From NCBI GenBank assembly GCA_002162095.1, contig CP021424.1, positions 1,364,001 through 1,428,000 of the forward strand: a stretch of 64,000 nt of DNA, in the 5' to 3' direction. This stretch comes from Armatimonadetes bacterium Uphvl-Ar2 (lineage in GTDB: Bacteria; Armatimonadota; Fimbriimonadia; Fimbriimonadales; Fimbriimonadaceae). A program made the position numbers and the translations under genes. Of the stretch, positions 8,893-20,128 are shown one piece after another; position 1 is the first letter of the stretch; each line of letters begins with the position of its first letter. The notes under the pieces are model-generated. The model searched no databases. It worked only from the letters and a program-made list of their open reading frames with translations, and was not told the origin of the DNA.

Positions 8893-9437
8893 TCCTTGCC
8901 CTCCTCGGCTTCGGTTTGGTCGCCGGCGATTTCAGCGAGGTGAACCAGACCCGGGTGGGTGGGAGCAGCAAAGTGCTTCTTGACCGCGCGGACGTTGGGG
9001 CAGTCGCCTTCCCAACCGAATTGACACAGGGGCTGCACCGGGAGATTGAGGATCAAACCTTGGCGCAGGTAGCCATCGGGGATGAGCGCGTTCTTGTCAA
9101 AAATCTTTTCGGGCTCTTCTTCCGGCACGATGTGCGCGAAACCGTCACTCCCGTAGCAAGAGGGCACACCCTCTACGGTGAACTCGTCATCCATCTCAAA
9201 TTCCACGTCCACTTCGATCGGTTCATTGCATCGGGCGCATTCGACGACGCACCGGGTCCGGAATTGCCCGGAAATCAGCAAGATGTTGCCCGTGCTCACC
9301 GCCGAGAGTTCGCCCTCAATGGGATTTACGAGATCTACATCTTCTTCCTGAGAAAGTGAAGTGTGGATCGTGAAATTGAGTTGCTTCCCGGGGTTTTGCA
9401 GAGCCTCGTTGAGATCGAGGAGATGGTTGCGCTTCAC
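8889..9437 (-). CDS. DUF177 (YceD-like) protein
   Basis: 182 residues of the DUF177/YceD family, which in most bacteria precedes rpmF and plsX and has been linked to 23S rRNA metabolism. The core CARCNEPIEV motif is visible near residue 70, and two further cysteines (LCQFGWEGDC) near residue 145 sit where the family often has a metal-site pair. The GTG start at 9437 begins MKRNHLLDL. A TACACT box lies 9 bases upstream with no Shine-Dalgarno, which suggests a leaderless message. Confidence 0.8.
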   Translation of the reverse strand: MKRNHLLDLNEALQNPGKQLNFTIHTSLSQEEDVDLVNPIEGELSAVSTGNILLISGQFRTRCVVECARCNEPIEVDVEFEMDDEFTVEGVPSCYGSDGFAHIVPEEEPEKIFDKNALIPDGYLRQGLILNLPVQPLCQFGWEGDCPNVRAVKKHFAAPTHPGLVHLAEIAGDQTEAEEGKE

Positions 9438-9446
9438 GCTGAGGCC

Positions 9447-9452
9447 AGTGTA
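9447..9452 (-). promoter_or_regulatory. -10-like box (TACACT) for the DUF177-plsX-fabH operon
   Basis: On the minus strand TACACT lies 9 bases before the GTG at 9437, placing the predicted transcription start within a few bases of the start codon. No clear -35 hexamer is present. Confidence 0.4.
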
Positions 9453-9588
9453 CCTGCGGGGGTGTCGAGGTTCCCGAACGCCCGGCCAATCCTCGGCTTC
9501 CGACCCGCAAAAGTGGGACCGATGCGAAAAGTTGAACGAAATTCATGGCTGTGTTCGTCCGAGGTACGTGTGTTTGCGGCGGTATGGC

Positions 9589-9617
9589 TTGCGTTCTGGC
9601 GCTGAACCAGGTACAGT
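9589..9617 (+). promoter_or_regulatory. Promoter of the 9652 lipoprotein gene
   Basis: TTGCGT at 9589-9594 and TACAGT at 9612-9617 are separated by 17 bases, a sigma70-like arrangement. The predicted start would be near 9624, giving a leader of about 28 bases that contains GAGG before the TTG start. Confidence 0.5.
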
Positions 9618-9651
9618 CACCAGCGTTCGCAACACGAGCGAGGTATTGACC

Positions 9652-11010
9652 TTGAAGAAAGCGGTTTGGTGGGTGTTGGCCGGGCTCATAGTGGTGGGCT
9701 GCGGAGGTGAAGGTAGCGGCCTGACGGGCGGTTCGACGAGTGGCACGACAAGTGGCACGACGAGCGGTTCGACCAGTGGTTCGACTAGCGGTAGTACGGG
9801 ACGTGCGATTCCCGATTCGAAGCTCGGAAACGTGGCGACGATGCAGTTTCTCTATCTTTCGGGTCAGGGCCGTCGTGCCGTGGATTCGAAGATCGCGCAG
9901 ATTACGTTTGCGCAACTCCAAAACAGTTCGGCGGACTTTGTGCCGCGTGAACAACAGGGCTCGGGCAATGGGATCCGGGTGCAGCTTGATGGCTACACGC
10001 TGAACTCGCTGTCGTTTGAAGAGCGCATTGACTTGAACACGACGGCGGCACGCGGCTTTGCGCAGTACCCGCTTTCGGTGAGCCAGATTGACCAGACGAC
10101 CACCACGGGCAACAGCACGCTGTGGCTAGGCAATTTCACGATCTCCCCGCCGCTGGCGGTGAACGCTCGCCTGTTCCCGGGTCGCCAAACGACGCTTCAG
10201 ATGAAGCTGAACGATGCGATTCTGGATACGCAGACGGTGGGCGGCGTGACGAGCCCGACTTTCAATCGCACTCAGTTCGAATCCGAAAACTACGATCCGG
10301 TGGACAACCGCATCAACGGTTTCCTGAGCGACCACGTGGCCTTTGACCTGCGTCAAATGGCGGCGGCGGATCGCCCCTCCATGAGCGGTGGAGCTCCGGC
10401 GGAGCGCATTCTGTTCAGCGGCGACGCGATTGCCCTGACCTCGGGCACGGATGCCAACGGTTCCTTCGAAGTCCTGCCGGCGACCGCCGACGTGACGACG
10501 CGATTCCGAGGCATCTTCCGCCTGCCGACGCAGATTGCGGGCCGAGACGTGCCGGGCACCTACGTGGTGACCGAACCGGACCCGCGCGTGCCGTCGGACC
10601 CAAACGCCAACACGCTGACGGCCCTGCAGGGCATTTGGCGAGCGCACACGGATGTTCTGGATTACTCCCGAACCCCGCAGTTCGCGATGGTGGCGATCCC
10701 GAATCACGATGACAAGTTCCCGACCCCGGATGCCGAAGACGGTATGCAGGTCGTGATCTACAACCTGAGTGGTAGTAACGTGGTGGCGATGTGGCAGGGC
10801 CGAATTCGGTTCACCAACACCACGACGGGTCTGGTGGAGTGCTGGAGCGTAAATCAGATCGCGAACGCCACGCCGAACAATCCGGCGATCGGGACGATCT
10901 CGAACTTCGAACTCAAGAATGGTCGCGTGGTGGCCGGTGACTTCAACTTCACCGTCGCTCCGGGCGCGTTCCCCTTCCCCCGCACGGGTGGCTTCCGCGC
11001 CCTGCGGTAA
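9652..11010 (+). CDS. Exported lipoprotein of unknown function
   Basis: About 452 residues. The N-terminus is a lipoprotein signal: basic KK, hydrophobic stretch, then a lipobox ending VVGC followed by GG. A low-complexity Gly-Ser-Thr linker follows, built from 12-bp DNA repeats. The rest is a soluble, Asn/Thr-rich domain without a recognised motif. TTG at 9652 (or 9646) is chosen because it places the signal sequence correctly and follows a GAGG site; no ATG or GTG gives a better fit. It is 23 bases upstream of the dop/pafA-like gene, but a link with pupylation is not evident. Confidence 0.7.
   Translation: MKKAVWWVLAGLIVVGCGGEGSGLTGGSTSGTTSGTTSGSTSGSTSGSTGRAIPDSKLGNVATMQFLYLSGQGRRAVDSKIAQITFAQLQNSSADFVPREQQGSGNGIRVQLDGYTLNSLSFEERIDLNTTAARGFAQYPLSVSQIDQTTTTGNSTLWLGNFTISPPLAVNARLFPGRQTTLQMKLNDAILDTQTVGGVTSPTFNRTQFESENYDPVDNRINGFLSDHVAFDLRQMAAADRPSMSGGAPAERILFSGDAIALTSGTDANGSFEVLPATADVTTRFRGIFRLPTQIAGRDVPGTYVVTEPDPRVPSDPNANTLTALQGIWRAHTDVLDYSRTPQFAMVAIPNHDDKFPTPDAEDGMQVVIYNLSGSNVVAMWQGRIRFTNTTTGLVECWSVNQIANATPNNPAIGTISNFELKNGRVVAGDFNFTVAPGAFPFPRTGGFRALR
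9730..9801 (+). repeat. 12-bp tandem repeat coding a Gly-Ser/Thr linker
   Basis: Five near-perfect 12-base units plus a degenerate sixth, each coding Gly-(Ser/Thr)-Thr-Ser, follow the lipoprotein cysteine. Third-codon-position changes between units show that the amino-acid repeat is kept. Copy number may vary between strains. Confidence 0.8.
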
Positions 11011-11033
11011 GCCGCGCGGCGAAGACAAAGCGT

Positions 11034-12518
11034 GTGCGACCGATTCTTGCCGGACTTGATACCGAGTACGGCCTGAGTCTCGAAGGTCGCACCGTTCATA
11101 ACCAAATCGAAGACGCCCGGGAGTTCGTGGAAGCGACCCCGGGCGAAGTCTTTTGCGGGTGGGATGCCCGGGATGAGGCCCCGCGATCTGACCTGCGGGG
11201 TTTCCAGGTGGAGCGGCTTTCGTTCGACCCCACCGACGCTCTGTTTGATGCCGGCGCGAGTGTGACGGATGCGGCCGTGGCCCGGGCCGACCGAGTGCTG
11301 CCGAATGGAGCCAGGTTCTACAACGACCACGGCCACCCCGAATACGCCACCCCGGAGTGCTGGAGCGCCCGCGAACTGGCCTTGCACGATAAGGCCGGAG
11401 AGATGTGGCTGCGGGCCACGGCGGCGGCCTACTACCGCCGGACGGGGCGACGAGTACGCCTGACCAAGAACACGCTGGACTACCACGGGGCGAGTTGGGG
11501 GGCACACGAGAGCTACTTGGCCCCCCGGTCGCTGGGTTTTGAAGGCGTCTTTGCGGCCTTGGCGCCCTTGCTGGTGGTCCGGCCGATCTTGGTCGGAGCG
11601 GGGCGTGTTGGTGGTGCCCGTAACGAGCCGGAATTTGAAATCTCGCAACGGGCGCAGTTCATTACGGAGCGGGCGAGTGTGGATACGTTGTTCCGCCGAC
11701 CCTTGGTGAATACGCGGGATGAGCCCCACGCCGCCCGGGGCGAGTGGATGCGGGTGCACGTCATCCCCGGTGACGCCAACATGGCCTTCACCTGCACGCG
11801 CCGCAAGGTGGCCCTGGTGCAGATGGCGCTGGCGCTGGCCGAGGTGGGGCATGCCCCCGCGTGGGACTTAGCCGACCCCGTTAAGGCCCTGCACCAAGTG
11901 AGCCGCAACCCCGACCAAGACGTCCGCATTGAGCTGGCGGGCGGGAACTGGACGACCGCCCGGTTCATCCTTGAATCGTATTGCCAAGCAGCCCGGGAAC
12001 ATCTCGACGCAGGCGCGCCGCCGGTGGCCGAGTGGCTTGCAGTGGCGGAGGAGTGCCTGATGCTGACGGAAGCCCGGTTCAACGACCCCGACCGGTTTGC
12101 CCGGCATGTGGAGTGGGCCTGCAAGCGGCAAATCCTGGGCGGCTTTTTGGCCGACGCCGAGGAAGACTGGCACTCGGACGTGGCGCGGTCGCTGGACCTC
12201 GCCTGGCACGATCTGGACCCCGATGAAGGGCTCTACGCGCCCCTGGCCGCCGATGGCTACATGATGGGTGAACCCAGCCCCACCGAGGTGGTGGTGCGCA
12301 TGCACCACGTCACCGAGCCCACGCGCGCCTTTGCCCGCAGCACAGCGGTGCGGCATTTTCGTGAGAAATTGGTGGCGGCCTCGTGGGGCCGGCTCACTTT
12401 GGGCCAGGGCGAAACTCGCCACGAATGCCTTTTGCCGCCCGATTTGATGTACAGCGAGGCACTTGACCACGCGGAGGACGTAGAATCCTTTGTAACCCTG
12501 CTCCGAGGTCAACCATGA
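11034..12518 (+). CDS. Pup/UBact deamidase-depupylase or ligase (Dop/PafA family)
   Basis: 494 residues of the glutamine-synthetase-like Dop/PafA family that handles prokaryotic ubiquitin-like modifiers. It starts with the family metal/nucleotide motif GLDTEYG and has NDHGHPEYATPEC followed by DKAGE, an ISQRAQF segment, NTRDEPHA and a GDANM segment. The DHxHPEY and DKAGE forms and the position directly before the modifier gene favour Dop, which would deamidate a C-terminal Gln. A PafA ligase role cannot be excluded, and this is the only family member in the window. The GTG start is at 11034. Its stop overlaps the modifier gene's ATG (ATGA). Confidence 0.9.
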   Translation: MRPILAGLDTEYGLSLEGRTVHNQIEDAREFVEATPGEVFCGWDARDEAPRSDLRGFQVERLSFDPTDALFDAGASVTDAAVARADRVLPNGARFYNDHGHPEYATPECWSARELALHDKAGEMWLRATAAAYYRRTGRRVRLTKNTLDYHGASWGAHESYLAPRSLGFEGVFAALAPLLVVRPILVGAGRVGGARNEPEFEISQRAQFITERASVDTLFRRPLVNTRDEPHAARGEWMRVHVIPGDANMAFTCTRRKVALVQMALALAEVGHAPAWDLADPVKALHQVSRNPDQDVRIELAGGNWTTARFILESYCQAAREHLDAGAPPVAEWLAVAEECLMLTEARFNDPDRFARHVEWACKRQILGGFLADAEEDWHSDVARSLDLAWHDLDPDEGLYAPLAADGYMMGEPSPTEVVVRMHHVTEPTRAFARSTAVRHFREKLVAASWGRLTLGQGETRHECLLPPDLMYSEALDHAEDVESFVTLLRGQP

Positions 12519-12700
12519 TTTACGCCGACGATCGCATCCAGAAACCCCGCCCGGAAGAACCCTCGCGGCAAGCCCCGGAAGAAGGGGGCCCCCAGAAGCC
12601 CGATATCGGCCGCCCGCAGCTACCGGATGAGCTCTTGAAGCGCATGCGCCGGGTCGATCCGGACCGAGCCAAGCAGTATCGGCAGCGGTCGGGGCAATGA
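12515..12700 (+). CDS. Pup-like protein modifier (UBact type)
   Basis: A 61-residue, highly charged, proline-rich and probably disordered protein ending YRQRSGQ. The C-terminal Gly-Gln, the LLKRMRRVDP segment and the size match the UBact/Pup family of ubiquitin-like protein tags, which are joined through the C-terminal residue (Glu after deamidation of Gln) to lysines of targets for proteasomal degradation. Unlike actinobacterial Pup it ends in a single Gly before Gln. ATGA overlaps on both sides couple it to the Dop/PafA-like gene and prcB. Two internal lysines are present after the N-terminal part. Confidence 0.92.
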   Translation: MIYADDRIQKPRPEEPSRQAPEEGGPQKPDIGRPQLPDELLKRMRRVDPDRAKQYRQRSGQ

Positions 12701-13416
12701 GTACGGATTTCGCCAAATTGGTGGGATTCCCGAACCCGAGCGGGACGCCCGAGATCGAAGTTCACGGCACCACGGTGCTGGCGCTGGCCTTCCAGGATGG
12801 CGTCATTGTGCTCGCGGACCGCCGCGCCACCATGGGCAACTTGATCATGTTTGATCGGGCGGAAAAGATTGAGGCGCTGGATGATGCCACGGTGCTGGCC
12901 ATCAGCGGGGCCTACGCGCGCAGCGTGGAAGTATGCCGCTTTTTGCGCCACAGCTTTAAGTTTTATGAGCGCATGAATCTCGTGCCGCTCAGCACCGATG
13001 GCAAGCTCATGGCCATTACGCAGGCCCTCGCCAACAATCTGGTGCAGGCTGTGAATGGCGGCGGGCTGTTTCTCCCCATCGCCGCAACGTACGACGCCAA
13101 TGAGGACAAGTTTGAGATTCACTCCTTTGACGCAGCGGGGGCACGTTTCCATTACGATGACTTCGCTTGCGCCGGGAGTGGTAGCGAACGCATCCGAGGC
13201 ATTTTTGATTACATCCGCACCACCAAAGCAGCGTGGAAAGACATGTCACGCGACGATGCGTTAAGAGAAGGGCTACGCATGTTGGCGATTGCCGCGGATC
13301 TTGATTCCGCGACCGGGGGCTTTGATAAGGTCCCGCCGCGCATCGCTTTCCTCACTCGGCAGGGCGTGCAAATGATGGCGGACGACGAATTCCGCGCCTT
13401 TGCTGCTACGCTGTAA
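12697..13416 (+). CDS. prcB: 20S proteasome beta subunit
   Basis: 239 residues. A 24-residue propeptide ends at HG, and Thr25 would become the N-terminal catalytic threonine after cleavage. Counting from it, Asp17 (LAD) and Lys33 (AEK) sit exactly at the conserved active-site positions, and a GSGS segment lies further on. It should form the proteolytic rings of a bacterial 20S proteasome degrading tagged proteins. The ATG overlaps the modifier gene's stop. No alpha-subunit gene follows, which is unusual because prcA normally lies next to prcB. Confidence 0.93.
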   Translation: MSTDFAKLVGFPNPSGTPEIEVHGTTVLALAFQDGVIVLADRRATMGNLIMFDRAEKIEALDDATVLAISGAYARSVEVCRFLRHSFKFYERMNLVPLSTDGKLMAITQALANNLVQAVNGGGLFLPIAATYDANEDKFEIHSFDAAGARFHYDDFACAGSGSERIRGIFDYIRTTKAAWKDMSRDDALREGLRMLAIAADLDSATGGFDKVPPRIAFLTRQGVQMMADDEFRAFAATL

Positions 13417-13452
13417 TCGATTCTCGACCCCCATTGCCTGAGGCGCAAAAAA

Positions 13453-13490
13453 GCCATGCCACTCAATGAACGGGATGGCCTCTTTGTTTT
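13453..13490 (+). terminator. Candidate terminator after prcB
   Basis: GCCATGCC (13453-13460) pairs with GGGATGGC (13472-13479) with one mismatch across an 11-base loop, followed by CTCTTTGTTTT. It lies between the convergent prcB and 5'-nucleotidase genes. Confidence 0.5.
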
Positions 13491-13502
13491 CCGGCGCCGC
13501 CC

Positions 13503-15074
13503 TTAGCGCCGGACGGTGATTCGGCCGTCCATCACAGGCTTGACGGTGCCGCCTAAGCTCTTGATGTACTCCACCGAGGCGTCCACGTCAATCAGGCCGG
13601 TGTCGTAGTAGTACGAGCCCGTGCGCGTCTTGAGGTTAGCGTGGGCATCGCCGCCGCCCGCCGTGAACGAGTTCAGGCAAATGCGGTACGTCTTGCTCAT
13701 GTCCAGGGCTTGACCATCCAGGGTTGCCTCCACCACGCGGTCCCCGGCCGGGCGAGTCACGTCCACCACGTACCGGAAGTTGGCACTGGGGTGCAGGAGC
13801 GCGCCACTGCCCTCGGGGAAGGTGGCCACGCCGTGCTCCAGCATGGATTTCAGTTCCGCGCCCTTCACATCCACCACAGCCAGGGTGTTGGCGAAAGGCT
13901 GCACGGTGATGGCGGTGCCGAAGGTGACCTTGCCGGCCTCGTAGCCTGCGCGTACCCCGCCGCCGTTCATAAAGGCGGCCACCACGCCGTTCACCTTGGT
14001 GGCGTGGAGCATGGCGTCCGCGATGAAGTTGCCCATGGCACTCTCACCAGAGCGGCTCGCCCCCTGCGGGATGGCTTCTTCCGCCGTCGCAATCGGCTTG
14101 GTCATCATCTCTTCGATCGGCACGCGGAAGGCCTGCACCATCGTGGCGACGATCGGGTCTTCGGCCACGGTGGAGTCAATCAGGCGCGGGGTGCCCGCGT
14201 GCGACTTCACCACGCCGTTTTCATCAAACGTCACTTCCAGGCGGCCGAGCATCTTGCCCCACTCCCAGGCCTGCACCACCAGCAGGGGGTTGCCGTCCAC
14301 ATCCTTGAGCTCCGTGGGGTATTTGCCCTCGGGTTGGCGGGTGCCGGGCAGGGGATTCTCAAACTCGCCGAGCGGGGTGTGGCTGTGGCCGCCCACGATC
14401 ACGTCCACGTGGCGGAGCTTCGGCCCGTTGGCCACGTCCACCTCGTAGGCGCTGTGGCTGAGCAGGATGATCTTGTTGATGCCGCGCGCCGTAAGGGCTT
14501 CGGCTTCTTTGTTCACGCTCTCCACCCAGTCCTTCATGATGACGGTTTCGGGCATGGCGCTAATGCTGGGCAGGTCAGGGGTGGTCGCCCCGATGATGCC
14601 AATGCGCTCGCCGCCCACTTCGGTCACCACGCTCGGGCGGATCAAGTCCTTCAGGTCCAGGTCGCCCGCCACATCCAGGTTGGCGGAGAGCAGCGGGAAC
14701 TGAAGCTGCTGGGCAAACTTGGCCAGCGTCGGCGCGCCGCGGTCGAACTCGTGGTTGCCCACAGCCATGGCCGAGTAACCGATGTAGTTCATGATCGCCG
14801 CGTCGGCCAGGCCGCCGTAGACGTTGAAGTACAGCGTGCCCTGGAACACGTCCCCGGCATCCAGCAGGAGGGCGTTTTCCGCCGCACCGAGTTCTTCTTG
14901 GATGGCGGTGGCCAGGCGGGCGTAGCCGCCGTACTCCTGGCGGCTGATGACCACCGGTTCCACGCGGGCGTGGAGGTCGTTGGTGTGAATGATCGTCAGC
15001 TTGTAATCCGCGGCCAGGCTAAGCGAAGCCAGGGCCATCCCTACGGCCGCCGTGATCCATCGAGAACCGAACAT
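13503..15074 (-). CDS. Exported 5'-nucleotidase / 2',3'-cyclic phosphodiesterase family protein
   Basis: 523 residues with an N-terminal signal peptide ending near SLAAD. The N-terminal calcineurin-like metallophosphatase domain carries all five metal motifs: HTNDLHAR, DAGDVFQG, GNHEFDRG, LLSHS and VGGHSHT. The C-terminal 5'-nucleotidase domain includes NGGGVRAG and the substrate-binding NSFTAGGGD. UshA/YfkN-type enzymes hydrolyse extracellular nucleotides to nucleosides and phosphate in the periplasm or at the surface. The length matches UshA-like proteins. It is monocistronic or at the end of a minus-strand unit, separated from mdh by a strong terminator. Confidence 0.9.
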   Translation of the reverse strand: MFGSRWITAAVGMALASLSLAADYKLTIIHTNDLHARVEPVVISRQEYGGYARLATAIQEELGAAENALLLDAGDVFQGTLYFNVYGGLADAAIMNYIGYSAMAVGNHEFDRGAPTLAKFAQQLQFPLLSANLDVAGDLDLKDLIRPSVVTEVGGERIGIIGATTPDLPSISAMPETVIMKDWVESVNKEAEALTARGINKIILLSHSAYEVDVANGPKLRHVDVIVGGHSHTPLGEFENPLPGTRQPEGKYPTELKDVDGNPLLVVQAWEWGKMLGRLEVTFDENGVVKSHAGTPRLIDSTVAEDPIVATMVQAFRVPIEEMMTKPIATAEEAIPQGASRSGESAMGNFIADAMLHATKVNGVVAAFMNGGGVRAGYEAGKVTFGTAITVQPFANTLAVVDVKGAELKSMLEHGVATFPEGSGALLHPSANFRYVVDVTRPAGDRVVEATLDGQALDMSKTYRICLNSFTAGGGDAHANLKTRTGSYYYDTGLIDVDASVEYIKSLGGTVKPVMDGRITVRR

Positions 15075-16939: not shown

Positions 16940-18123
16940 ATTGCGCCCCAGGTCGGCTCCTTGCCGGGGATTAGCACTAACCCGAGCCCGATATCGCTCC
17001 CCACGCGCGCGCCAATGAACCCGCGCACCCCTTGCGGGGTGCCCATCAGGCTGGCAAAGGCCTCGCCTTTGCTCCCGGTTCGCCACAGGTCGAGCCCGAC
17101 GAAGAAATTGGCGGGTTCGTCTCCGGCCGCGAGAACCCCCATGCGCAGAGTGGGCGAGAAGAAGTTGCTGGGCGGCTGAAAGGCGTTGCCGCCAAAGGTG
17201 GTCTCGAAGTATCGGGCGAAGGTGCTCATCAACCGGTCGTACACCAGGCCGCCGCCGTAGTGGCCGGTCTCCAAGGTCAAGACTTTGGCGTTAGGAATGG
17301 CGGCCAGCAGGCGATCGGTGGCGAACGGTGGCACCACGGTATCGAACCGCGCACGAACCACAAAAATCGGGCGCGGATCATCGGCCTGCAAGTAGTTCAG
17401 GGGTTCAATGTCCTTGAGATACTCGCGTAGCCGGTCTTCGCTCCAGCCTTCGTCGCGCAGGCGATTCCGGAGGACGACCGTGCGGGAGGAGTTCCAATAG
17501 ATCCCGGCCAAATCGGCCCCGCCCAGCAACAGGCTGACGGAGTGGATGCGAGGCTCCACCGCAAAGGTGAGTGAGGCCACAATGGCCCCTAAGCTGGTGC
17601 CCCCCAGGCCGATGCGGGTGCTATCGAGTTCGGGGCGAGTGGCGATCCAGTCGCAGGCGCGGCGGATATCGGCCACGCTCTGGGCCATCACCTGGCGCAG
17701 CGCCTCGGGGTCGGCGGGTACGGCCAATTCGCCGCTCCGCGTGCCAGCGGGGGCACGCTCCATATGGTACGGCAAGGTGAGCGAGAGGCTGGCAATGCCC
17801 CGGCGGGCCAGCTGGTCGGCCATGGTCATCTCGACTCGATGGTCGGTGGCGCCCCAATAGTGCAGCAGAATGACCACCGGCACCTTGCCCAGGCGGTCGG
17901 TGGGAAGCGTGAAATCCGCCACCACTACATCGTTCAAAAGTTGCCCGCTAGGCCGGGGGGTGTCGTATTGAATGCGGGTGCGCGTCCAATACTCGGTGGT
18001 CAGGCGCGGTTCAGGCCGCCCAAAGGGCACGGGGGCCGGAGGGGCAAGCAGACCTTCTCGTTGCGCCGCTGGGGTCGGTTGGGCCAAAGTGAGAGCAGCG
18101 CACACCACTGCGAAGAAAGCCAT
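16921..18123 (-). CDS. Exported alpha/beta hydrolase
   Basis: About 400 residues with a signal peptide (MAFFAVVCAALTLAQ). The hydrolase fold shows an oxyanion region LLHYWGATDH, the nucleophile elbow GGTSLGA near residue 170, Asp in ARFDTVVPP and His in ETGHYGGG, a complete Ser-Asp-His triad of the acetyl-xylan/dienelactone-type branch. A C-terminal extension of ~90 residues rich in Gly, Phe and Trp resembles a small beta-rich domain. The start at 18123 is chosen for the signal peptide; a longer upstream frame would read through the divergent gene. The start codon shares CATG with the divergent gene. Confidence 0.7.
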   Translation of the reverse strand: MAFFAVVCAALTLAQPTPAAQREGLLAPPAPVPFGRPEPRLTTEYWTRTRIQYDTPRPSGQLLNDVVVADFTLPTDRLGKVPVVILLHYWGATDHRVEMTMADQLARRGIASLSLTLPYHMERAPAGTRSGELAVPADPEALRQVMAQSVADIRRACDWIATRPELDSTRIGLGGTSLGAIVASLTFAVEPRIHSVSLLLGGADLAGIYWNSSRTVVLRNRLRDEGWSEDRLREYLKDIEPLNYLQADDPRPIFVVRARFDTVVPPFATDRLLAAIPNAKVLTLETGHYGGGLVYDRLMSTFARYFETTFGGNAFQPPSNFFSPTLRMGVLAAGDEPANFFVGLDLWRTGSKGEAFASLMGTPQGVRGFIGARVGSDIGLGLVLIPGKEPTWGAIWNIVF

Positions 18124-20128
18124 GATTGCCCGCAAGCTCAAATCCGCCTTGGCTTTGCCCTTAGCCCTCGTTGCTTCGACCTCGGTGGCCAATGCCCCCA
18201 GCCTGACGGACTGGGACGCGGCCTTGGGCGTGGTGGGGCTGAACACGCAAACCGCACGCTTTGACCCGAGCATGCTCTCATTCTATCGTGAAGGCGAGTT
18301 TGCGATGCCGATTTACGAAGGGCTGATGGGCAATCCGTGGAACGCGCCGTTCTTGATGGATATGCACCGGCGTTCGCTGACGGTGACCGTGAGCAACCCG
18401 CTGGAGACGGTGAGCGTGGTGTCGCGGCTGGCGGGGATTCCTTCCCGGCGCGAACTGCTGGGCGACCCGATTGTGGGGGCGAAGACGCGGGCAGCCGCCC
18501 CGGGGGCGCTGGCGGCGATGTTGAACACCTACCGCCAGCAGGGGATCATCACGGGCACGGTGCCGACCCTGGATGAAGTACCGGCGGACGCCCAGCGGGC
18601 CACGGCCCTGATGCTGGACGTGCTGCTGACGAGCCACCGGTTCCGCGCGGCAGCGCTGGCGGATATCAACGACATTCCGGCGGCCTACGCGCGGGCGAGC
18701 CGACCGGAAGGCGCTTACGATCCGGTGGAATCGGCGCGCAGCCGGCAACTGGATCGCCGGGTTGATCGGCGCTACCTGGCCGCGGCCGGGCAGGACTTGG
18801 CGGCGGCCACGGAGGCGGCGCATCTTCTTTTGCGCACGGTGAGCCCGAGCGCGCAATTCCGGGTGGAAATCCCGACCAAATGGGGGGCAATCATCCTGAG
18901 CGGCGCAGGCAACGACACTCACGGCGGCAAAGAGACGCTGCTGGTGATGGACACCGGCGGCGACGACACCTACATTAACACGGCCGCCACTTTGAGTGAC
19001 CAGAACTGGGCGAGCATCGTGGTGGATGTGCGCGGGAACGATAAGTACCTGAGCGACGCCGCGCTGGCGACCACCGAGATTGCCCAATGGACTTCGCGCA
19101 ATGCGGCGCGGGCGCAAGCCGGACCGGGGGGCGCCATCTTGGGCGTGGCGATGCTCCTGGATGGAGAAGGCGACGATTTGTACCGGTCTCAACGCATGGG
19201 ATTAGGCGGAGCCGTTTATGGCGTGAGTTTGCTCCGCGATTTGGCGGGGAAGGACATTTACGATTCGTACGCCGATGCGCAGGGCTTTGCCCGGGCGGGC
19301 GCTGGCATCTTGGAGGACGCGGACGGTGACGATACGTACACTGGATTCTTGCAGGTTCAGGGCGTGGGGTTAACGTTAGGCGCGGGTCTCTTACTCGATC
19401 GCTCTGGCGATGACCGCTACATCGCCAACGACGAAGTGATCGATTTCCCCTCGCCGCAGACGAGCGAACACAACGTGAGCATGTCTCAGGGTGCGGGCAA
19501 TGGCGTGCGGCGGGATTACCTGGGTGGCGACAGCCTGGCTGGGGGCGTGGGCGTGCTGATGGACCAGGGCGGCAACGATGAGTACTCCTGCGGCGTGTTC
19601 GGACAGGGCGTGGGCTACTGGATGGGCGTGGGCTTGCTGTGGGATCAGATGGGCAACGACAAGTACACCGGCCAGTGGTATGTGCAGGGCGCGGCCGCGC
19701 ACTTCGCGGTTGGGATTTTGGAAGACGGCGGGGGCCGCGATACCTATAACGGCTTCCTCAATATGTCCCAAGGGGCCGGGCACGATTTCTCGCTCGGAGC
19801 GCTGTTTGATTACGCGGGCTCGGATGCCTATTCCGCCTCGCCGCTGAGCCTAGGGGCGGGCAATGCGAACGGGATCGGCATCTTCTTCGACGCCGAAGGG
19901 GATGACACCTACAACGCCCAGGGTACGGCGCTGGGCAATGTCAATCCGGCCCCCGTGGGGAGTCTCCGGGAACAAGCTCTGTCCCTCGGTGTGTTCTTAG
20001 ATTTCGGAGGCACCGATCAGTTCCCAGCGGCGGTGCCGCACGCGGTGGACGGTTCGCGCAAGGGCACGTTCGTCCGGCGGGGCGAACCCGAGCCGACGGG
20101 CCAATACGGTGTCTTCTGGGCGAGATAA
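18122..20128 (+). CDS. Exported acidic repeat protein (27-residue repeats)
   Basis: About 668 residues with a signal peptide (LALPLALVASTSVANA). The second half is built of ~27-28-residue repeats with the core D-x-x-G-x-D-x-Y followed by a Gly-rich hydrophobic stretch ending hG-h-L/F (for example DQMGNDKY, DGGGRDTY, DYAGSDAY, DAEGDDTY). The pattern suggests a beta-solenoid with regularly spaced, possibly calcium-binding Asp residues; it is reminiscent of RTX repeats but longer. The function is unknown. It starts the long plus-strand envelope gene series; the rhomboid gene follows immediately (stop 20128, start 20129). Confidence 0.65.
   Translation: MIARKLKSALALPLALVASTSVANAPSLTDWDAALGVVGLNTQTARFDPSMLSFYREGEFAMPIYEGLMGNPWNAPFLMDMHRRSLTVTVSNPLETVSVVSRLAGIPSRRELLGDPIVGAKTRAAAPGALAAMLNTYRQQGIITGTVPTLDEVPADAQRATALMLDVLLTSHRFRAAALADINDIPAAYARASRPEGAYDPVESARSRQLDRRVDRRYLAAAGQDLAAATEAAHLLLRTVSPSAQFRVEIPTKWGAIILSGAGNDTHGGKETLLVMDTGGDDTYINTAATLSDQNWASIVVDVRGNDKYLSDAALATTEIAQWTSRNAARAQAGPGGAILGVAMLLDGEGDDLYRSQRMGLGGAVYGVSLLRDLAGKDIYDSYADAQGFARAGAGILEDADGDDTYTGFLQVQGVGLTLGAGLLLDRSGDDRYIANDEVIDFPSPQTSEHNVSMSQGAGNGVRRDYLGGDSLAGGVGVLMDQGGNDEYSCGVFGQGVGYWMGVGLLWDQMGNDKYTGQWYVQGAAAHFAVGILEDGGGRDTYNGFLNMSQGAGHDFSLGALFDYAGSDAYSASPLSLGAGNANGIGIFFDAEGDDTYNAQGTALGNVNPAPVGSLREQALSLGVFLDFGGTDQFPAAVPHAVDGSRKGTFVRRGEPEPTGQYGVFWAR

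Follow-up and report, generated by a model that had tools for sequence, protein, structure and literature searches.

The window, a 64,000-nucleotide stretch of the genome of Armatimonadetes bacterium Uphvl-Ar2 (Armatimonadota, Fimbriimonadaceae; contig CP021424.1 of assembly GCA_002162095.1, here C1:1364001-1428000), carries the operon dop-UBact-prcB, which encodes an enzyme of the Dop type, the small protein modifier UBact and the beta subunit of a 20S proteasome. All six components of the system (ATPase, dop, UBact, prcB, prcA and pafA) are present once on the single contig of this genome, and none is missing. We consider it very probable that the operon is the remaining core of a cluster of six genes, ATPase-dop-UBact-prcB-prcA-pafA, whose members were dispersed in the order Fimbriimonadales with no part lost, and that the machine works by UBact tagging and 20S degradation. 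The modifier system is UBact-type and ordinary in gene content.

The operon and its partner genes on the chromosome

The contig has 2,633,441 bases, and the genome is 99.66% complete. A genome-wide search with PF00227 gave matches at two places, prcB and an open reading frame of 220 residues at C1:775,558, 601 kb away, which is prcA. PF03136 also matched at two places, the window dop and a PafA-type open reading frame of 490 residues at C1:2,542,593, 1.17 Mb away. TIGR03689 gave one strong match, at C1:1,216,900, 160 kb away (552 residues, 449.6 bits, E 1.5e-134), and this ATPase is over the cut-offs of PF17758, PF16450 and PF00004, for the proteasomal-ATPase OB and AAA domains. An earlier note on the window had described an operon with no alpha subunit and only one ligase/deamidase, whose alpha ring, ligase and ATPase lie elsewhere or are absent. 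It is correct that neither prcA nor a second ligase/deamidase adjoins prcB, but the genome search that the note had suggested found prcA, the second Dop/PafA homologue and the ARC/Mpa-type ATPase, each once in the chromosome, so that of its two options only "elsewhere" stands. A frameshifted prcA in the window was considered and rejected, as PF00227 finds only prcB and the distant locus.

Could this be a minimal system, with a ring of PrcB only, like HslV or Anbu, one bifunctional Dop/PafA and no ATPase? Such a system would account for an operon that none of prcA, pafA and the ATPase gene adjoins. However, the presence of all three on the same chromosome refutes it at the gene level. Furthermore, prcA is located elsewhere in the 60 Fimbriimonadaceae genomes listed for both genes, and the prcA of this genome is under constraint, since the ratio of nonsynonymous to synonymous substitution (dN/dS) in comparison with G119, a genome of the same genus, is 0.07 (dN 0.062, dS 0.90), which indicates purifying selection. 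We regard the alpha-less system as very improbable.

The coordinates, frames and motifs given in the earlier note are confirmed: three genes with two ATGA overlaps, a modifier ending in YRQRSGQ, and Thr1, Asp17 and Lys33 present in the beta subunit. The modifier scores 74.3 bits with PF20513 (cut-off 27.8) and 68.6 bits with NF033388 (cut-off 35), and its end fits the UBact C-terminal pattern QR[ST]G[QE]. There are no matches to Pup (PF05639) in the genome at E ≤ 0.001, which rules out Pup membership, and the terminus is SGQ, as opposed to the GG[EQ] of Pup. The earlier note was thus right that the system is of the UBact type; the host phylum is one of Gram-negative-type bacteria.

The window member of the Pup-ligase family is of the Dop type, with 324.6 bits for TIGR03688 (below its cut-off of 492.3) against 228.4 bits for the PafA model, TIGR03686. 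With phmmer, the Dop structures 4b0r and 5lrt are closest (E 2.5e-72); the PafA structure 4b0t (2.2e-40) aligns only from residue 87, whereas the alignment with the Dop structures runs over residues 6-454 and so takes in the segment that precedes residue 87. The segment of the Dop-loop and the active-site Asp are both present, and the window NDH aligns with the VDH of the Dop structures; we take the Asp of this motif to be the catalytic one. In PrcB, T25, D41 and K57 (Thr1, Asp17 and Lys33 of the mature numbering) are identical in 36 of 36 aligned sequences. TIGR03690 is its best model (126.9 bits, under the cut-off of 191.9), and phmmer matches it to actinobacterial PrcB structures. PrcA scores 67.3 bits with TIGR03691 (20S_bact_alpha; E 1.3e-18), short of the cut-off of 139.05. 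The PrcA of a relative of the same order (L205, UBact-type) was predicted as an alpha subunit, with a mean predicted local distance difference test score (pLDDT) of 94.9; fold matches to the model were led by Rhodococcus and M. tuberculosis alpha subunits, with a best Z of 27.2, to M. tuberculosis PrcA.

Two points count against these assignments. All five NCBIfam equivalog cut-offs (Dop, PafA, PrcB, PrcA and ATPase) were missed, those of PafA and the ATPase being 551.3 and 504.75 bits. In addition, PafA sets itself apart only weakly from Dop (274.5 bits with the PafA profile and 255.5 with the Dop profile), and single-sequence phmmer puts Dop structures above PafA. The protein is assigned to PafA because its orthologue is the gene that closes intact clusters, with 47-54% identity to the PafA encoded there. 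The PrcA and ATPase cut-offs are reached by none of 291 genomes of the phylum, so these models look actinobacterial.

Gene content, gene order, family assignments, conserved residues and selection on prcA are direct observations here, and we infer all the biochemical steps, which for UBact are transferred from the Pup chemistry described in the available parts of PMC3511204 and PMC7947786. The C-terminal Gln of UBact would be converted to Glu by Dop, and this Glu would be linked to lysines of target proteins by PafA. The Mpa/ARC-type ATPase would then recruit and unfold the tagged proteins, dock on the PrcA alpha ring and feed the PrcB beta chamber. Removal of the tag, reversing the tagging, may also be carried out by Dop. 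Of the 28 Fimbriimonadaceae loci that were read (L133-L160), 22 encode a UBact that ends in Gln and 6 one that ends in Glu, and the end also varies inside a single genus of another family, f3 (g41; L015, L020, L021, L025, L026, L029 and L037). Because the end varies between Gln and Glu among close relatives, the need for deamidation appears to be easily gained and lost.

The coordinates of the features are collected in Table 1. A scan of positions 9380-13520 for sigma-70 promoters gave no promoter-like site, and a terminator scan of the same region gave four terminator-like sites, with 4.1 expected. In G119, a degenerate second copy of the 3' end of prcB lies downstream of prcB (L146:973-1506); its last residues are the same and the frame is lost before them, as in a local partial duplication. 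Further along the window, an open reading frame of 718 residues (17972-20128, + strand) has abundant GDD-type repeats and is without a Pfam match.

Table 1. Features of the operon region, in window coordinates
Feature	Position	Strand	Description
Predicted lipoprotein	9652..11010	+	452 residues, no known family; 23 nt upstream of dop; proposed fourth operon member
dop	11034..12518	+	UBact deamidase / tag-removing enzyme (Dop type); GTG start, 494 residues; PF03136, 387 bits
dop/UBact overlap	12515..12518	+	ATGA, 4 nt; seen in the sequence
ubact	12515..12700	+	UBact modifier, 61 residues, C-terminus YRQRSGQ (Gln end); PF20513, NF033388
UBact/prcB overlap	12697..12700	+	ATGA, 4 nt; seen in the sequence
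prcB	12697..13416	+	20S proteasome beta subunit, 239 residues, 24-residue propeptide, Thr1 = residue 25; PF00227, 94.2 bits

Gene order and the separation of prcA from prcB

The family of the window, Fimbriimonadaceae (f1), was compared with three further families of Armatimonadota (f2, f3 and f4). Among the 291 genomes of the phylum, UBact was found in 167, prcA in 165, the pup_AAA ATPase in 169 (E ≤ 1e-70) and Pup_ligase in 188. Two f1 genomes (G132 and G133; 1.5 Mb, 97% complete) have no match to UBact, prcA, Pup_ligase or pup_AAA, an apparent loss of the whole system.

Gene-order counts refer to positions among the matches listed (149 genomes for UBact, 150 for prcA and 150 for the ATPase). 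UBact and prcA lie within 4 kb of each other in 0 of 60 f1 and 0 of 3 f2 genomes, as compared with 66 of 70 elsewhere. The ATPase gene is apart from UBact in all 77 genomes of f1-f4. In the 28 f1 loci read directly, prcB is present and prcA does not adjoin it; there are 31 distinct f1 loci overall. Two of them deviate further: in L152 dop does not adjoin UBact, and in L156 UBact and prcB are parted by an insertion. In f2, prcB and prcA are paired in five of five loci and are not beside UBact, except in G067, while f3 and f4 have kept dop-UBact-prcB-prcA, plus pafA except in G163. A tree of Dop and PrcB gives f1 as one clade (Shimodaira-Hasegawa-like approximate likelihood ratio test, 99), sister to f2 (100).

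An apparent separation could also be an artefact of assembly or of contig ends, and four genomes outside f1 and f2 did first look split. Three of these (G018, G002 and G038) proved to be contig breaks, with prcB beside prcA on a second contig, and one (G065) is truly separated. In f1, however, the window genome is one contig, 13 genomes among the matches listed have UBact and prcA on one contig, at least 116 kb and up to 1.9 Mb apart, and all 31 distinct loci have prcB with no adjoining prcA. We give an artefact practically no weight.

A set of 80 loci drawn from many phyla includes 60 with prcB; two of these were too short, and prcA lies ≤762 bp from prcB in 51 of the 58 with enough sequence. 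The remaining seven are six f1 loci and the Verrucomicrobiales locus L234, for which a prcA-like gene lies on a different contig. The order ATPase-dop-UBact/Pup-prcB-prcA-pafA is ancestral; it is kept across phyla and broken in Fimbriimonadaceae. Breaks in the cluster are frequent, but separation of alpha and beta is rare within our sample (three lineages) and family-wide only in f1. Other rearrangements were seen as well. In Verrucomicrobia of the Chthoniobacterales type, the cluster is split into ATPase-dop and UBact-prcB-prcA loci (L216, L228, L235, L239-L242, L248 and L253 with L274-L282). The order is changed in L218, L238 and L249 (Nitrospinota) and in L222, with prcA ahead of UBact-prcB, and in L222 prcA is flanked by two prcB-like genes.

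At its new place in the window genome, prcA is found in the order rplK, a 5'-nucleotidase-C-domain protein, prcA, a phytase-like protein and a gene that we presume from its sequence to be mnmG. Among 19 other prcA loci of f1 and f2, an rplK homologue is nearby in five and a 5'-nucleotidase-C protein in six. Between G000 and G119 (L173:4796-6140 and L174), dS is 0.68-0.90 in prcA and the gene upstream of it, as against 0.02 in rplK and 0.25 in mnmG; prcA and its upstream neighbour are perhaps a recombined stretch. The ratio of alpha to beta distances is 1.59 in f1 and 1.34 in families with linked genes (15 taxa each), a difference of 0.25 with a taxon bootstrap of 0.08-0.40. The signal is only modest and comes from pairwise distances that are not independent; a relaxation of constraint on prcA following its departure from the operon was not adopted as an explanation. 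The family-wide separation of prcA and prcB breaks an order that the available part of PMC3511204 describes as rigidly conserved for Pup, and it raises the question of how alpha and beta are balanced.

The ATPase tail and the alpha-ring pocket

The ATPase of the window genome ends in YRRTVL, and neither a GQYL nor an HbYX docking tail is found. A penultimate Tyr or Phe is present in none of 78 UBact-type ATPases, as against 11 of 11 Pup-type ATPases, which end in GQYL, GHYL, GHYF or GTFL. (In the Pup-type set, Pup was confirmed in 10 loci, no Pup open reading frame was found in L269 and L272, and for L271 the Dop and the tail decided the type.) The two terminal residues are both V, I, L or M in 75 of the 78 UBact-type ATPases, the exceptions being L106, L107 and L221. 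The entropies of these two positions are 1.25 and 1.09 bits, compared with 2.68-3.62 bits at positions -3 to -19. Both types of system are present in Nitrospirota and in Poribacteria, showing that the tail tracks the system and not the phylum.

The alpha subunit differs between the two types as well. In M. tuberculosis, according to the accessible text of PMC9599533, the tail Tyr bonds Arg26 or Glu119 of alpha, Lys52 can bond the carboxylate, and Asp144 and Ser146 bind Gly. Residue 119 is Glu in 13 of 13 Pup-type PrcA, whereas in 69 of 69 UBact-type PrcA it is V, I, L or T, and Lys52 and Asp144 are invariant. The PrcA of the window genome has Lys, Val and Asp at 52, 119 and 144. Docking would most likely occur through the Tyr-free tail, here RRTVL: its carboxylate would sit on the conserved alpha-Lys, and its penultimate, aliphatic residue would lie against the hydrophobic residue at the Glu119 position.

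Two observations weaken the case for a matched tail and pocket. On the Dop tree, each trait needs one change, which amounts to one ancient event with no replication. Furthermore, 16 of 152 scored PrcA columns, 119 among them, share no residue between the two types, so the pocket residue could be one of them by chance. The match of tail and pocket as one ancient switch is thus suggestive only. One small hint in the direction of a docking code comes from Poribacteria with the GTFL tail, in which alpha residue 26 is Gln and not Arg or Lys. With midpoint rooting, a provisional choice of root, the Dop tree nests the Pup-type branch among the UBact-type sequences.

What if docking of the ATPase on the 20S particle has been lost, as in corynebacteria, where the ATPase has no GQYL tail, and tagging is regulatory or another activator is used? 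The missing penultimate Tyr or Phe speaks for this, as does the statement, in the part of PMC3511204 available, that ATPases of organisms with no proteasome genes lack a C-terminal interaction motif. However, conservation in the tail is highest at its last two positions, which would be unexpected if the tail were useless. The ATPase and prcA occur in near-equal numbers of genomes (169 and 165 of 291), 12 of 14 genomes whose dop locus had no prcB carry proteasome genes elsewhere, alpha Lys52 and Asp144 do not vary, and no homologue of the alternative activator Bpa was found in the window genome. We therefore think loss of docking unlikely, and an aliphatic docking tail appears more likely, given that conservation is concentrated at the end of the tail and that these ATPases are accompanied by prcA and prcB. 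The available text of PMC8755798 names the penultimate tyrosine as what chiefly determines the docking of proteasomal ATPases, both eukaryotic and bacterial. If the reading of an aliphatic tail is true, a Tyr-free branch whose pocket residue has changed would demonstrate that the gate can open without that tyrosine, and the UBact ATPase and 20S particle would be a second ready motor/20S pairing for tests.

The upstream lipoprotein gene and comparison with known systems

A predicted lipoprotein gene, which the earlier note had missed, directly precedes dop. The protein has a lipobox, VVG/C, with the Cys codon at 9700, followed by a Gly/Ser/Thr linker, and its model is all-beta. A lipobox is present in eight of eight full-length homologues. 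Of the 28 f1 loci fetched, 26 have a homologue immediately ahead of dop, and so do all seven loci of a second set (L193-L199); four loci are in both sets, and counting these once gives 29 of 31 distinct f1 loci, or 30 of 32 with the window. The gap to dop is often 0-4 nt. Neither L144, on the basal f1 branch, nor L152 showed the gene upstream of dop. It is absent before dop in 12 other Armatimonadota loci, in each of which 1.0-3.7 kb upstream was examined (f2, L161, L162 and L183; f3, L165-L168; f4, L164; outgroups, L169-L172). The window protein gave no useful match in Pfam, NCBIfam or PHROGs and none among PDB sequences. Its model, built from eight sequences, has a pLDDT of 72.5 and no Foldseek match at E ≤ 0.001; the best Z on a second look, 5.7 for TbpB, is too low to mean anything.

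By its position, the lipoprotein gene seems to belong with dop-UBact-prcB. The chances are about even that it is instead a passenger with a function of its own, beside dop by chance or through a shared promoter only. An exported lipoprotein has no obvious tie to a cytosolic protease, there is no fold or family match to suggest one, and the gene is missing from the basal locus and was not seen in the one in which dop has left UBact-prcB. On the other hand, it has stayed next to dop, often with hardly any gap, in a family in which the other proteasome genes were shuffled; as a rough control, none of the 28 f1 loci contains a homologue of the 5'-nucleotidase gene that follows prcB in the window. 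If the lipoprotein gene does belong with the operon, one may ask whether there is a link between UBact tagging and the cell envelope. We lean slightly toward a combined proposal: UBact proteasomes may have a docking code of their own, with a Tyr-free x-[V/I]-[I/V] end, Glu119 replaced by V, I or L, and Lys52 and Asp144 kept, and f1 may follow a scattered plan in which tag, deamidase and beta subunit are tied to the lipoprotein and alpha is expressed elsewhere.

Lehmann, Udasin, Livneh and Ciechanover reportedly described the UBact conjugation-proteasome system of Gram-negative phyla in 2017. The components here are the same: UBact (PF20513 / NF033388), Dop, PafA, PrcA, PrcB and an Mpa/ARC-type ATPase. 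The difference is that the genes are scattered, with prcA apart from prcB family-wide and a lipoprotein gene joined to dop. In archaea, the alpha and beta proteasome genes are usually unlinked. The window genome resembles the archaeal 20S proteasome with PAN in this unlinked arrangement, whereas its subunits are of the bacterial type, tagging is of the Pup-ligase type and the tail lacks the HbYX Tyr. The proteasome subunits of Armatimonadetes, Nitrospirae and Verrucomicrobia form a subcluster apart from Actinobacteria in the accessible part of PMC5666114, in agreement with our Dop tree; tails, gene order and separation of prcA and prcB are not treated in that part. No published report of the Tyr-free tail, the prcA/prcB split or the lipoprotein was found in a search that left most of the subscription literature outside, so that novelty is unproven. 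The actinobacterial Pup-proteasome (mpa/arc - dop - pup - prcB - prcA ... pafA) has the same enzymes in the same order as the ancestral cluster, and a Gln-ended modifier that requires deamidation is known for Pup from the portion of PMC3511204 available. Here, by contrast, the modifier is UBact and not Pup, the ATPase tail is without Tyr, and alpha residue 119 is V, I, L or T and not Glu. What is unusual is the scattered plan with alpha and beta apart throughout the family, the attached lipoprotein, and the Tyr-free ATPase tail across the sampled UBact branch.

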